A stretch of DNA of 36,804 nucleotides from Trueperaceae bacterium (GTDB taxonomy: Bacteria > Deinococcota > Deinococci > Deinococcales > Trueperaceae): positions 1 to 36,804 of the forward strand of contig SLSQ01000061.1 in NCBI GenBank assembly GCA_007130355.1. Direction: 5' to 3'. Below are positions 12,058 through 18,467 of this stretch, one piece after another (the stretch's first letter is position 1; the number at the start of each line of letters is the position of its first letter). The notes below the pieces were generated by a model. The model searched no databases, was not told the origin of the DNA, and saw only the letters and a list, made by a program, of their open reading frames with translations. The translations under genes and the position numbers were made by a program.

Positions 12058-13401
12058 TCACGGCCCGTCCAGGTGCGGGTCGGCCCCGAACGCCCGCTCG
12101 GCGGAGGGCAGGCGTACCTCGAAGATCGCTCCATGGACCCCCGGGCCGCCGCGCGCTTCGGCCCGGACGGTCCCGCCCATGGCATCGACCAGGCGACGGA
12201 CCACCGCCAGCCCAAGACCCGTTCCGCCGCTCCCGGCGACGTAGCGACCGAAGATCGCGTCGCGCGCCGCCGCGTCGAGCCCCGGGCCGTCGTCCTCGAC
12301 CCGCAACGCCACCTCCTCGCCGGCGCGCGCCACGTGGACGCGCACCCCCTCCTCCGCGTCCGCGGCCTTGACCGCGTTGCGCACCAGGTTGCGGACCACC
12401 TGCCGCAGCCGCACCGGATCGATGAGCGCTCGGAGGTCGTCGTCCGCAGCGACCTCGACGCGGACTCCGCCCCAGCCGCCGGCCGCGTCGCGGACCGATT
12501 CGCCCACGTCCCGCACCTCCCAGGCGAGGCGTTCGTCCAGGTCGCCGCGGGCCAGCGTCAACAGATCATTGGAGGCGTGGAGCAGGTCGTCGGCCGCCGC
12601 CTGCGCCGCCTCGAGTCCCCTCCGGTCCGGCTCGGACACCGCCGCGTCGCGCCCTTCCGCCAGGCGCCGCAGCCGGGCCGCGACGACGGTGACCGGGGCC
12701 GCGAGCTCGTGGGCCACGTCCGCAAGCCGTTCCCGCTCGGCGTCGCGCCGCTTCCGGATGCCGTCCAGAGCGCGATTCAGTCCGTCCGCGAGTCGGGCCA
12801 CCTCGTCGTCGGGTCCCCGGTACGCCACCGGCCGAGGATCGGCGGGATCGACGGCGTCGGCCGCCCGCGCCAACGTGCCGAGCGGACGGAGGCCGCGCCG
12901 GACGCTCCAGGCGCCCGCGGCGCCCGACGCGACGATCGTGAGCACGCCGGCGGCGAGCAGCACGCGCCGCAGCGCCTCCCGGTCGCGGTCGGCGGGCCGC
13001 ATCGAGACGGCCACGCGCACGGTGCCGGCGTCGGTGCCGGCGGGCGTGCGCCAGGGGGCCGCCGCGACCGCCCAGCGACCGTCCATGTCGGACAGCGGGC
13101 GCTCCACCACGGCGCCCGGACCCGCCTCCGGCAGGGGCGCCTGCGACGGGCCGGGAAGCCGGACGTTCCCGTCGCGTCCGACGAACTGCAGCCGCACGTC
13201 GCCGACGCTCGCGAGGAAGGCGTCGCCCGGCCGGCCGGCCTCGACGATCTCCTGAGCGCGGCGCGCCTCCCGCTCCGCCGTCTCGCGCGCCTGCCGCTCC
13301 AGGAAGGCGCCGAACGCCGCGTCCGTCGCCACGCCGAACGCCGCGACGGTGACGGCGACGCCGCCCACCACCCAGGCCGTGAGCCGGTCCCTCAGCAGCA
13401 C
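12058..13401 (-). CDS. Sensor histidine kinase
   Basis: 447 aa; two TM segments, HAMP-like, ADVAHELAAPVTVV H-box, VRNLVRNAVKAAD N-box, VEDDGPGLD, GGTGLGLAVVRRLVDAMGG. Confidence 0.95.
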   Translation of the reverse strand: MLLRDRLTAWVVGGVAVTVAAFGVATDAAFGAFLERQARETAEREARRAQEIVEAGRPGDAFLASVGDVRLQFVGRDGNVRLPGPSQAPLPEAGPGAVVERPLSDMDGRWAVAAAPWRTPAGTDAGTVRVAVSMRPADRDREALRRVLLAAGVLTIVASGAAGAWSVRRGLRPLGTLARAADAVDPADPRPVAYRGPDDEVARLADGLNRALDGIRKRRDAERERLADVAHELAAPVTVVAARLRRLAEGRDAAVSEPDRRGLEAAQAAADDLLHASNDLLTLARGDLDERLAWEVRDVGESVRDAAGGWGGVRVEVAADDDLRALIDPVRLRQVVRNLVRNAVKAADAEEGVRVHVARAGEEVALRVEDDGPGLDAAARDAIFGRYVAGSGGTGLGLAVVRRLVDAMGGTVRAEARGGPGVHGAIFEVRLPSAERAFGADPHLDGP

Positions 13402-13411
13402 CGCGACCCGC

Positions 13412-14071
13412 TCACGCGACCGTGTAGCCCTTGCCGCGGACCGTTCGGATCGGGTCGTCGGCCCCGAGCCCGCGCAGCTTGCGGCGCAGGCCCGAGACGT
13501 AGACCTGCACCGTGTTCGACCCCGGCAGGTCCGGTCCGTAGAGGCGCCGTTCGAGCTCGTCGACCGAGAAGACCCGACCGGGGTGCGCCAGCAAGCGGTG
13601 CAGGACCTCCCCCTCCCGTTCGGGCAGCACGACGGCCCCGGCCGGACCGTGCACCGTACGCGTGTCCGGCTCGTACCGGAACGCCCCGTGACGAAGCTCG
13701 GTCGCGCCGGTCCCCTCCCGCAGTTGGGCGTGCACGCGCGCGAGCAGCTCGCGCACGTCGAACGGCTTCACCAGGTAGTCCCGCGCGCCGGCGTACAGCC
13801 CCGCGATCCGGTCGTCGACCTCGCGTCGTGCCGTCAGCATCAGGATCGGCAGGCCGTCGTCGCGCAGGCGCTCCGCGACCTCGAGGCCGTCGACGTCCGG
13901 AAGGTTCAGGTCGAGGAGCACCAGGTCGAAGGCGTGGTCGATCGCCGCTTCCAGTCCGGCCGTGCCGTCCGGGACCGCGCGCACCCCGTACCCGGCCGTC
14001 GTGAGCTCCTGCACGAGAAGTTCGCGTAGGCTGGCGTCGTCCTCGATCAGGAGCAGCTCGCCGCGCGTCAC
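13412..14071 (-). CDS. OmpR-family response regulator
   Basis: 219 aa; receiver LLIEDDASLREL / VLLDLNLPDVDG / LTAR / KPFDVRELLARV and winged-helix C-terminus TVQVYVSGLRRKL...IRTVRGKGYTV. Confidence 0.96.
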   Translation of the reverse strand: MTRGELLLIEDDASLRELLVQELTTAGYGVRAVPDGTAGLEAAIDHAFDLVLLDLNLPDVDGLEVAERLRDDGLPILMLTARREVDDRIAGLYAGARDYLVKPFDVRELLARVHAQLREGTGATELRHGAFRYEPDTRTVHGPAGAVVLPEREGEVLHRLLAHPGRVFSVDELERRLYGPDLPGSNTVQVYVSGLRRKLRGLGADDPIRTVRGKGYTVA

Positions 14072-14841
14072 GGGAGACCCGGCAGGTCCGGGAGCGGATC
14101 TTCGGCGTCCTCTTCGGGGTCCTCTTCGTCGACCGCTTCGTCCTCAGCTTCGTCGTCCGCGTCGGCGTCCGACGCGTCGTCCGGGTCCTCGTCGGCGTCG
14201 GGGTCCCCGAACAGCGGGCCCGCGTCCGGCCGGTCGATCTCCGGCAGGCGCGGAGGGAGCGGCAGGCGCGGATCGTCGTCCGGTGCGACGTCCGGGTCGG
14301 GGACGTCGGCGTCGGGCGCGTCGGGGTCCGGGCCGCCCGGTTCCCCGTCGACGTCCGGTTCGGCTCGGGCCCGGTCGGCGTCGTCCGACGGAGCGACGAG
14401 GCTCGCCTCCGCGCCGTCCACGGCGACCCAGAGCCCACGTCCGCCCGTCGCGAGCAGGTCGGCCAGATCGGCTCCGTTCGCCGGTCCCTCGTCCGGCTCC
14501 CCCGTCCCCTCCTCCTCGGGCAGGTCGGCCCCGGAGACGAGGAGGCGACCGGCGCGCCACGCGGCGCGGTACGTCGTCGACGAGCCGTCCGGGGCGATCA
14601 GCACGATCCGCAGCTCCTGGGCGGGACCCTGAAGCTCGAGCCGCACGCCGTCGGCGTCGACCGTTCCGAAACCGACGAAGCGCTGGCCCCCCGCGTCGGT
14701 GGCCAGGAGCTCGCTGCCGGGCTCGGGGTCGAACGCCTGGGCCGATGCCCACGGGAGCCCCGCCGCGACGGCGAGGGCGACGCACGTGCGCGCGAGGTTC
14801 GCCGCGCACGCGCGCACGTCGATTCGAACCCGTTCGTGCAC
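14068..14841 (-). CDS. Secreted Asp/Glu-rich protein of unknown function
   Basis: GTG at 14841 preceded by GGAGG with 6-nt spacing; hydrophobic signal-like segment VALAVAAGLPWASAQA; C-terminal half almost entirely D/E/P/A; stop overlaps response regulator start (GTGA). Confidence 0.75.
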   Translation of the reverse strand: MHERVRIDVRACAANLARTCVALAVAAGLPWASAQAFDPEPGSELLATDAGGQRFVGFGTVDADGVRLELQGPAQELRIVLIAPDGSSTTYRAAWRAGRLLVSGADLPEEEGTGEPDEGPANGADLADLLATGGRGLWVAVDGAEASLVAPSDDADRARAEPDVDGEPGGPDPDAPDADVPDPDVAPDDDPRLPLPPRLPEIDRPDAGPLFGDPDADEDPDDASDADADDEAEDEAVDEEDPEEDAEDPLPDLPGLP

Positions 14842-14938
14842 GCTGCGCCTCCGTTCCCGAGTCCTCATCGTCCCGGACGGTCCGCGTACCGCCCGGCCCA
14901 CGCCGGAACCCGTGTCCGGATCATTGCACCACGATCGG

Positions 14939-14955
14939 CTGAAGGGCTCCTGAAC
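14939..14955 (-). promoter_or_regulatory. Putative response regulator box 1 (tandem 6-mer, 11-bp period)
   Basis: Minus strand GTTCAG-GAGCC-CTTCAG, upstream of the 14841 gene. Confidence 0.55.
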
Positions 14956-14990
14956 CCCGTCGGGCGAAGGCGGCGCGACCCACCCGCGCC

Positions 14991-15007
14991 CTTCAGCGAC
15001 GCTTCAG
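14991..15007 (+). promoter_or_regulatory. Putative response regulator box 2 (tandem 6-mer, 11-bp period)
   Basis: Plus strand CTTCAG-CGACG-CTTCAG, upstream of the 15121 gene; same motif as box 1 in the opposite orientation. Confidence 0.6.
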
Positions 15008-15120
15008 GTCCGACCTCCATCCTGACCCTCGAAGCGCGCCCCGACCGCGTCGGAACGACGACGGTCCGGGTGGCGCTCAGGCCCCGGACGCCGGTCCGGG
15101 CGCCGGAAAGGAGCACGACC

Positions 15121-15885
15121 ATGCGTACGATTCGCACGATGTTCCGACCGATCCTGCTCGCGACCCTCTTCGCGCTGGCGGCCTCGAGCGCCGCCGTCGC
15201 CCAAGAGGCGGAGGGAGCCGCCGAGGCCGCGGCCGACGCGGCAGCGACGGTGACGTTCTACGACGGCTCCGGCGCCGAGCTCGACGCGGGCGCCGACCTC
15301 CGCGCCGCCTTCACCGTCGAGGTGGAGACCGCCGCCGGCGAAACGTACCGCTTCCTCGTCACCCACGCGTCCGACGCGCTCGCCGAGGTCGAGGTCGCGC
15401 TGGGCGAGGCGCGCGAGCGGTCGATCGAGCTGACCGCCGCCATCGACGCGATCGTCCGGTCCGAGGCGAGCGGCAGCGACGCCGACGCCGCGTGGGACGC
15501 GGACGGCCGCTTCGTGACCGAACTCGGTGCGGTCGTCGAGGTCGACGAGACGACCGAGGGGACCACCCGCATCGTCCGCACGCCGTCCGGCGTCACCGTC
15601 ACCGTGCGCACCGAGGAGGACGCCTCGGCCACGGTCGACGTCGACGCGGACGTCGCCCACGGTGACGATCCGGCGGAAGACGTGCGCGGCGACGCCGAGG
15701 CCGGCGGCGACGGCGAAGCCGGCGCAGAAGGCTCCGTCGGCGTCGACGCCGAGGCCGAAGGCGAAGCGCGCGCCGAAGCGGGCGCCGACGGCTCGAGCGA
15801 AGCGCGCGGCGCGGGCGGCGCCCGGGTCGAGATCGAGACCGACATCGGCGTCGGGATCGGCACGGACGACGAGGACGACGAGTAA
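15121..15885 (+). CDS. Secreted acidic (Asp/Glu/Ala/Gly-rich) protein of unknown function
   Basis: ATG after AAAGGAG; signal peptide ILLATLFALAASSAAVAQ; acidic low-complexity C-terminus ending DDEDDE. Confidence 0.78.
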   Translation: MRTIRTMFRPILLATLFALAASSAAVAQEAEGAAEAAADAAATVTFYDGSGAELDAGADLRAAFTVEVETAAGETYRFLVTHASDALAEVEVALGEARERSIELTAAIDAIVRSEASGSDADAAWDADGRFVTELGAVVEVDETTEGTTRIVRTPSGVTVTVRTEEDASATVDVDADVAHGDDPAEDVRGDAEAGGDGEAGAEGSVGVDAEAEGEARAEAGADGSSEARGAGGARVEIETDIGVGIGTDDEDDE

Positions 15886-15918
15886 CGGCGGTCGGCGACG
15901 ACCCACGCCATAAGCTTC

Positions 15919-15946
15919 GTCGGGAGCGGCTTCGGCCGCTCCCGAC
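15919..15946. terminator. Hairpin with TTCG tetraloop downstream of acidic protein gene
   Basis: GTCGGGAGCGGC-TTCG-GCCGCTCCCGAC, 12-bp perfect stem. Confidence 0.7.
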
Positions 15947-15966
15947 GCTCGTGTCGCTCCGAAGCG

Positions 15967-15995: not shown

Positions 15996-18467
15996 TCATG
16001 CGTCGCGCTCCTCCCCCTGCAACCGACGCCGGACGTCGTCCACGTCGCCGGCGTCGGCGAGGCTCTCGATCGGACCGCTGAGGGCGAGAGCCCGCGTCGT
16101 CTCGGCGAGCAGCGCGAGGTGCTCGCGGCCCGACATGGCATCGGGCGAGATCAGCACGCAGAGGACGTGCACGCGGTGGGTCGAGGACCGGTGCGCGATC
16201 CCGGGGCGCGAAAGGCCGAGCGCGAGCACCGGTTCGGCCAGGCCCCGGCCGCGCGCGTGCGCGATCACGAGGCCCGGCAGCACCTCGGCGGCGTAGCCGA
16301 CGTCGTCGTCCAGCAGTTTCTCGAGCAGCACCGCACGCCGAACCGGCGCCTCCCCGACCGCGGCGTCGAGCAGCCGTTCGATCGCCCCCGCGTAGCTCGC
16401 GTCGGCCAGGTCGGGCAGGAACCGTTCCTCCGTCAGGAGCGCCGCGACCCGGTCGCGCGGCACCGGACCGTCCGTCCCCACGACCCGTTCCGACGGCACC
16501 ACGATCAGGACGCTGCCCGCGTGCTCGCCGAGCGCGCGCGCCAGGCGCGGCAGCCACGGTTCGTGCGCGACCGTCCCCTCGCGGGGCGCGAGGAGCGCCA
16601 CCAGGTCGGTCTGCGGGTCGATCCACTCCGAGCCGTTCCGGAGCACGGCGGTCCACGACGTCAGTCCGTGGAAGGTGGCCTCGAGCGCCGGTTCGACCTC
16701 GCCGCAGCGATGCGCGAGTCGGGTCGTGTCGCCCTGCACGACCAGGACCCGGAGGGAGGCGCCGAGCTGCACCACCAGCCGCTTGACGGCACGGATCGCG
16801 TCGTGGAACCCGGGGGCGTGGTCGGCGAGCGGCGGCACCACCAGCGTCACCCGACGGTGGGTGGCGACCGGCTGGCGCAGCCGCGTGATCGCCACCAGCT
16901 GATCGCCGCGCCGGACGGTGTCGTCGATCACCGCGCCCAGCACGTGGCCGCCGGTGCCGACGCGGCCGTCCCAGCCCAGCACGACGTCGGTGATCCGGTT
17001 GTCGCGCGCGGCGGCGACGATGCCGCTGGCGGTGTTCCGCGCGATCCGCGTCAGCGGGCGGACCGGGACGTCCGCCTCGGCGGCGTGGACCACGGCGTGC
17101 GCCAGGGTGCGTTCGGCGCGGGCGACCTGCTCCTCGCTCGGCACGACCAGGAGGGGGAACACCGGCTCCCGTTCGGCCGGGTCGCGCAACAGGAAGGCCA
17201 GGTCGAGCAGGTCGTCGGCGGTCTGCGGGTTCGCGAGCGGCACCAGCATCCGGTGGGGCGCGTCGTCCGGCGCCGGCTCCTCGCGCTCGGCGGCGACCGC
17301 CACCCGCTTGCCGAATCGTTCGACCAGGGTCGAGCCGACCAGGGTGCTCACCATCACGAGCACGATGACGGCGTTCACGACCGGCTCCCCGAACAGGCCG
17401 ATCTCGAGCCCGACGAAGGTGACCGCGAGCGTGGCGGCCGCCTGCGGAACGCTCAGCCCGACCATCAGCAGGCCCTGATCCAGACTGAGTCCGAAGATCC
17501 GCTGGGCGATCAGGGCGGCGGCCCCCTTGCCGACCAGCACGATCGCGATCATCAGGCCGGCGAGGATCGCGACGTCGGCGCTGCCGACCACGACGCGGAC
17601 GTCGACCAGCATCCCCACCGACAGCAGGAAGAACGGCACGAAGAAGGCGTTCCCCACGAACCGGACGCGCGTCATCAGGGTGCTCCGGTCTGGGACGAGA
17701 GGGTTCAGCGCGAGGCCGGCGAGGAACGCGCCGATGATCGGTTGCGCGCCGACCGCCTGCGCCAGCCAGGCGGACCCGAACGCCACGGCGAGCAGGAACA
17801 ACCAGCGCACCGCGGCGTCGTCGGCGGTGTTGCGGAAGAACCAGGCGCCGAGCTTCGGGACGCCCAGCGTCACGACCACCACGTACGCGGCCAGCCCGAG
17901 CGCGAGCCGGATCCAGAAGCCGGCGCCGGCGTCGCCGGTCGCGGCCCCGTCGATCACGGCGAGCACCGCCAGCGACAGGGCGTCGGTCAGCAGCGTCCCG
18001 CCGACGACCGTGACCACCGCCGGGTCGCGTCCGATCCCGAGCCGCGTGGCGACCGGGTAGGCGAGCAGCGTGTGGGAGGCGACGATCGCGCCGATCAGCA
18101 GGGCGGGACCGAGCTCGAACCGGTAGAGGGTCATCACGATCATCGCCAGGGCGGCGGGGATCGCGAACGAAAGCGTGCCGAAGGTCAGGCTTCGGACGCG
18201 CTCCCGGGCGAAGCCGCGCAGGTCCAGCTCGAGGCCGGCGACGAACATCAGGTAGAGCAGGCCGACGGTGCCGAGCAGCTCGATCGTGACGTCCCGCGCC
18301 AGCAGCCCGGTCGCGTTCGGACCGAGCACCGCACCGATCGCGATCAGCACCACGATGCCCGGCAGGCGCAGCCGCGGCGCGATCAGCGGCGCGATCAGGA
18401 ACGTCGTCACCGCGAGCGCCATGATCAGGACCGGGTCCTGGATCGGAAGGCTGGACGGGAGGTTCAT
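15996..18467 (-). CDS. CPA2-type cation:proton antiporter with C-terminal USP-like and PTS EIIA-like domains
   Basis: 823 aa; about 12 TM N-terminal half (ELDLRGFARERVRSLTFG, IGAIVASHTLLAYPVATRLGIGRDPAVVTVVGGTLLTDALSLAVLAV); soluble C-terminal half, ending in a region like EIIA-Fru/Ntr (VLPGLVIAHARGRGLAEPVLALGLSRPGI). Confidence 0.88.
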   Translation of the reverse strand: MNLPSSLPIQDPVLIMALAVTTFLIAPLIAPRLRLPGIVVLIAIGAVLGPNATGLLARDVTIELLGTVGLLYLMFVAGLELDLRGFARERVRSLTFGTLSFAIPAALAMIVMTLYRFELGPALLIGAIVASHTLLAYPVATRLGIGRDPAVVTVVGGTLLTDALSLAVLAVIDGAATGDAGAGFWIRLALGLAAYVVVVTLGVPKLGAWFFRNTADDAAVRWLFLLAVAFGSAWLAQAVGAQPIIGAFLAGLALNPLVPDRSTLMTRVRFVGNAFFVPFFLLSVGMLVDVRVVVGSADVAILAGLMIAIVLVGKGAAALIAQRIFGLSLDQGLLMVGLSVPQAAATLAVTFVGLEIGLFGEPVVNAVIVLVMVSTLVGSTLVERFGKRVAVAAEREEPAPDDAPHRMLVPLANPQTADDLLDLAFLLRDPAEREPVFPLLVVPSEEQVARAERTLAHAVVHAAEADVPVRPLTRIARNTASGIVAAARDNRITDVVLGWDGRVGTGGHVLGAVIDDTVRRGDQLVAITRLRQPVATHRRVTLVVPPLADHAPGFHDAIRAVKRLVVQLGASLRVLVVQGDTTRLAHRCGEVEPALEATFHGLTSWTAVLRNGSEWIDPQTDLVALLAPREGTVAHEPWLPRLARALGEHAGSVLIVVPSERVVGTDGPVPRDRVAALLTEERFLPDLADASYAGAIERLLDAAVGEAPVRRAVLLEKLLDDDVGYAAEVLPGLVIAHARGRGLAEPVLALGLSRPGIAHRSSTHRVHVLCVLISPDAMSGREHLALLAETTRALALSGPIESLADAGDVDDVRRRLQGEERDA

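Follow-up and report, generated by a model that had tools for sequence, protein, structure and literature searches.

Paired CTTCAG boxes at the divergent promoters of a putatively autoregulated OmpR/PhoB-family two-component system in Trueperaceae

We examined two short, oppositely oriented tandem repeats at positions 14939-15007 of a Trueperaceae contig (SLSQ01000061.1, assembly GCA_007130355.1; the whole 36,804-nucleotide stretch analyzed is referred to here as the window). These boxes are real and conserved, and almost certainly functional as regulator sites. They very likely belong to an autoregulated OmpR/PhoB-family system, in which the response regulator encoded at 13412-14071 (minus strand) would activate both divergent class II promoters through the tandem boxes. 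Many relatives have the same arrangement of promoters, which is a well-known type of regulation; that this particular regulator binds the boxes, and that it activates rather than represses, is what we infer.

The boxes and the genes they face

The minus-strand box, GTTCAG-GAGCC-CTTCAG (14955-14939), faces an operon encoding an acidic protein, the response regulator and a histidine kinase, and comprises an upstream half-site GTTCAG (14955-14950) and a downstream half-site CTTCAG (14944-14939), which is kept in orthologous operons. The plus-strand box, CTTCAG-CGACG-CTTCAG (14991-15007), faces the gene at 15121 with both of its CTTCAG half-sites (14991-14996 and 15002-15007). Both boxes have an 11-bp half-site period, and the gap between them is 35 bp. 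The earlier note had reported two opposed CTTCAG-type boxes with this period, and its coordinates, strands and spacing were all confirmed exactly. Just two exact matches to [CG]TTCAG-N5-CTTCAG were found in the entire 2.5 Mb assembly to which the window belongs (G000, 80.7% complete), both of them at 14939-15007. When one mismatch was allowed, 12 further matches appeared genome-wide versus 8 for the control, which is background level, and no further regulon members were found in G000.

The flanking genes also proved to be as the note had claimed, with a kinase and a regulator recognized by their Pfam domains and acidic open reading frames on either side. The sensor histidine kinase (12058-13401, minus strand) has HAMP, HisKA and HATPase_c domains, and the proposed binder (13412-14071) combines a receiver with a Trans_reg_C winged helix. 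Together with a HisKA/HATPase partner kinase and a promoter-adjacent tandem direct repeat of about one helical turn, this composition is that of an OmpR/PhoB-family two-component system and its operator. The first operon gene (14068-14841, minus strand) encodes a secreted acidic protein with an acidic tail; its GTG start at 14841 is better placed and preceded by GGAGG, so that a start at 14901 is disfavored. The divergent target (15121-15885, plus strand; RBS AAAGGAG) likewise encodes a secreted acidic protein and is followed by a perfect 13-bp hairpin (15918-15947, plus strand) that may be a terminator. Both proteins have a predicted pI of about 4.05 in their mature forms. Farther along, at 15996-18467 on the minus strand, lies a gene whose product joins a Na+/H+ exchanger to Usp-like and PTS EIIA-like domains.

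The N-terminal domain of the operon acidic protein recurs in most orthologous operons, where one or two genes encode it (31 ORFs). AlphaFold models it as six beta strands (pLDDT 90); no PDB fold match was found at E<=0.001, nor any consistent match in Pfam. We assign the protein to an undescribed family of predicted secreted beta-domain proteins. Members of this family carry acidic tails, lie in one or two copies directly 5' of the regulator gene, lack a Pfam model and occur at loci L123, L124, L125, L128, L130, L131, L133, L136, L137 and L138. Homology between the two acidic proteins of the window was rejected as not significant, the 4.2-bit score being driven by composition. No match to the 15121 protein was found in 60 other genomes, which makes it unique to G000 among 61. 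The 15121 gene is an orphan and not a conserved target of the system. With that caveat, the earlier proposal of an autoregulated system controlling both acidic genes is supported, the boxes being conserved in orthologous operons.

Conservation of the boxes and a promoter code

Related regulators were gathered from 60 related genomes and their surroundings read; 33 upstream regions were compared. An exact TT[CA]AG-N6-TT[CA]AG pair was present on the operon strand in 15 of the 33. Other spacers from 2 to 20 were found at 0-2 loci each, with the exception of spacer 17 (six loci), which equals 6+11 and derives from tandem arrays. In relatives, arrays of 2-5 half-sites with an 11-bp period stand immediately 5' of the first operon gene, and in most of them the array is single and points one way, with the geometry seen in the window. 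An exact box is absent from about half of the 33 loci, mainly those farther removed, in part because the sample includes distant regulators without the operon. Half-sites of the TTAAG type occur in orthologous operons, as do mixed TTCAG/TTAAG sets (in genus g2 relatives), where the window has CTTCAG. Proteobacterial regulators related to this one show the pentamer pair too, mostly at spacer 6 (9 on the plus strand, 4 on the minus strand), so the box type is old and widespread. The earlier note had named a lack of conservation upstream of orthologues as one refuting outcome; the boxes are in fact conserved by strand, spacing and promoter position.

A further signal lies downstream. In the window, -10-like hexamers follow the last half-site by 10 nt on both sides (TGCAAT at 14928-14923, minus strand, and CATCCT at 15018-15023, plus strand). 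Alignment of 21 promoters on their final half-site, both window boxes included, placed a -10-like hexamer exactly 10 nt downstream; four of the 21 (from G004 and G002) were added by hand, and the G002 operon box, recognized partly through its -10, is hence not independent. The mean -10 score was +2.37 at offset 10 versus -2.6 at the next best offset, and position 6 of the hexamer was T in 19 promoters out of 21 (P ~2e-12), position 2 being A in 15. This offset is an addition to the earlier note, whose reader had missed it. The full code (box-N10-NANNNT) was matched 64 times in 39 family genomes compared with once for a reversed control, and in G000 by the plus box of the window alone. As in PhoB-type class II promoters, the box replaces the -35 element and the -10 lies at a fixed offset of 10 across the 21 aligned promoters. 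This arrangement, which lacks a separate -35, is the PhoB/PmrA-type (class II) activator architecture (PMC4660055 for PmrA, PMC4682146 for BqsR).

Known regulators and competing explanations

In class II promoters of PhoB, the -35 is replaced by a pho box of direct repeats with an 11-bp period, about 10 nt upstream of the -10. The window boxes have the same period, place and distance but a different half-site sequence, and the regulator scored 153 bits against the PhoB equivalog, where the cut-off is 296. The BqsS kinase of the BqsRS system has a conserved periplasmic RExxE motif. Of 20 kinases compared, just those of the window and G002 have this motif; it is not kept in orthologues, and Fe(II) sensing through it was rejected on that ground. 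The BqsR operator of Pseudomonas aeruginosa, TTAAG-N6-TTAAG, occurs in clusters, and BqsR is an activator (PMC4682146). The boxes of the window and its relatives share with it a pentamer pair at the exact 6-bp spacing and the tandem clusters (up to five pentamers in BqsR), the last of which adjoins the promoter (PMC4682146), with TTCAG rather than TTAAG as the pentamer.

The PmrA box likewise consists of two half-sites of the CTTAAG type, CTTAAG-N5-(N)TTAAT/G, arranged head to tail around N5 (PMC3973317, PMC4660055). PmrA of the enterobacterial PmrAB (BasRS) system resembles the window regulator in its head-to-tail hexamers 5 bp apart, in its OmpR/PhoB-family membership and in a first half-site that overlaps the -35 (PMC3973317, PMC4660055); the window differs in having CTTCAG rather than CTTAAG half-sites, in a GC-rich genome, and acidic secreted proteins as targets. 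Against the PmrA equivalog NF007928 the regulator scored 135 bits (cut-off 330). Of the PmrA base contacts, the equivalents of Asn188 and Arg210 are kept, but the position of Asn196 is Gly, as compared by eye with the residues given in PMC4660055, where the docking of PmrA and PhoB is also discussed. The comparison with the PmrA box made in the earlier note holds for architecture (PMC3973317), although by the curated model the regulator is not PmrA. The regulator also misses the curated cut-offs of QseB and the rest; it is a plain OmpR/PhoB-family member that would work like PmrA or BqsR and is filed as neither. A literature search for CTTCAG operators returned no paper, and no such operator was found described for this bacterial family.

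On the model that we favor, the regulator (13412-14071), once phosphorylated, would occupy each CTTCAG pair in head-to-tail fashion along a single face of the DNA, with one dimer per box. Since the boxes occupy the -35 position, the bound regulator would recruit RNA polymerase to the weak -10 exactly 10 nt downstream. Activation of the minus promoter would autoregulate the genes for the acidic protein, the regulator and the kinase, and that of the plus promoter would yield the acidic exported protein encoded at 15121. The signal may be of an envelope or cation type, and the acidic secreted proteins may help to buffer or sense it. Counting against the model are the Gly at the position of Asn196, the failure to find more regulon members in G000 and the loci without an exact box.

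Three other explanations were weighed. The main binder of the boxes in vivo could be a PmrA/BqsR-like paralogue from the same genome, with the local system as target and not controller. There are 21 regulator-type matches in G000, and in other family genomes the same code precedes unrelated genes and other kinase genes. However, complete boxes in G000 flank this operon only, and in relatives the boxes track the operon while half-site changes track the recognition helix of this very regulator, so that we regard control by a paralogue as unlikely. We give still less weight to a joint repressor or bridging site, at which regulators bound 52 bp apart would loop or cover the intergenic DNA and silence both promoters. 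In its favor, close, opposed boxes are a feature of three species of one genus, the window's included; yet a -10 at activator distance accompanies each box, most relatives manage with a single one-directional array of the same geometry, and BqsR, whose layout is alike, activates.

Functionless CTTCAG pairs arisen by chance are the least credible explanation by far. The hexamers are short and single CTTCAG sequences are frequent, with 13 in the window, but a dinucleotide model predicts about 0.07 boxes for a genome and about 2e-6 for a 69-bp stretch, compared with two within 69 bp here, and chance is refuted by the conservation of spacing and -10 across species.

Variation within the genus and wider targets

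In G004 and G002, which belong to the same genus and have the system, the two opposed boxes are kept with half-sites changed to GTCAG types. Their regulators (L121 and L126) have the recognition helix SNAV..SRLR/SRVR, compared with SNTV..SGLR in the window. The sequences are consistent with a joint change, in this one lineage, of the half-site from TTCAG to GTCAG and of the recognition helix; GTCAG boxes were not found in other relatives with an Arg helix (G014, G031, G034, G028, G008 and G032). In these two species the divergent box has no coding gene in front of it; it points to a non-coding stretch of about 290 nt that is conserved and structured (G004, L121:3780-4095 on contig C149, plus strand; G002, L126:6041 to about 6340 on contig C19, minus strand). 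The two stretches are 77% identical over about 185 nt, fold more stably than their shuffled versions (z -2.4 and -3.2) and end in a conserved 11-12-bp hairpin; their stems are kept with three double-sided changes, a count from two sequences with a weak shuffle control (60/500). No match was found in Rfam, nor did a covariance model of the stretch find anything in the G000 assembly. A weak match in the window (15830-15953, 20.6 bits) was rejected as a non-coding RNA, since it overlaps the end of the 15121 gene and its hairpin, and another in G001 was set aside as what looks, by eye, like a chance hairpin 3' of a Lon-protease-like gene. A tentative reading, on which we would not insist, is that in this genus the divergent box serves as an exchangeable output slot, filled by an orphan acidic exported protein in the window and by a structured RNA of about 290 nt in the two sisters.

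Genes located 3' of the code in relatives encode acidic beta-domain proteins, BamB/PQQ_2-like lipoproteins, HTTM/vitamin K-dependent carboxylase-like proteins, fasciclin, DUF4956 and DUF4382 proteins, and kinases. Because these products are mostly exported or membrane proteins, the targets suggest an envelope response. Vitamin K-dependent carboxylase-like genes stand behind the code in three genomes (L247, L248 and L251 in G028, G035 and G029, respectively), the HTTM and VKGC lumenal domains being identified by Pfam in L247 and by similarity in L248 and L251. G016 and G024 have an expanded set of similar lipoproteins (L223, L224, L227, L230, L232, L233, L236 and L239), each encoded some 100-130 nt behind a CTTAAG/CTTCAG box that has an N10 -10; the PQQ_2/BamB-like call comes from the one lipoprotein tested, and the many genus g13 copies were assigned by N-terminal similarity. 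Another extended repeat, GTTAAGACCNTGTTAAGACC, whose -10 stands equally far away, recurs in genus g2 (G005 and G021), for example at L258 (G021:C44:36283-36315); it is probably another regulator's site.

What began as a motif spotted by eye can now be used, as the code STTMAG-N5-STTMAG-N10-NANNNT, to predict promoters in a bacterial family. Candidate regulon members named by it are the acidic beta-domain, BamB-like lipoprotein, vitamin K-dependent carboxylase-like, fasciclin and DUF4956 proteins. In the sister species, the joint shift from TTCAG to GTCAG and in the recognition helix provides a small natural experiment on the DNA specificity of OmpR/PhoB regulators. If the output slot is truly swappable, one signal would yield either a protein or a regulatory RNA.
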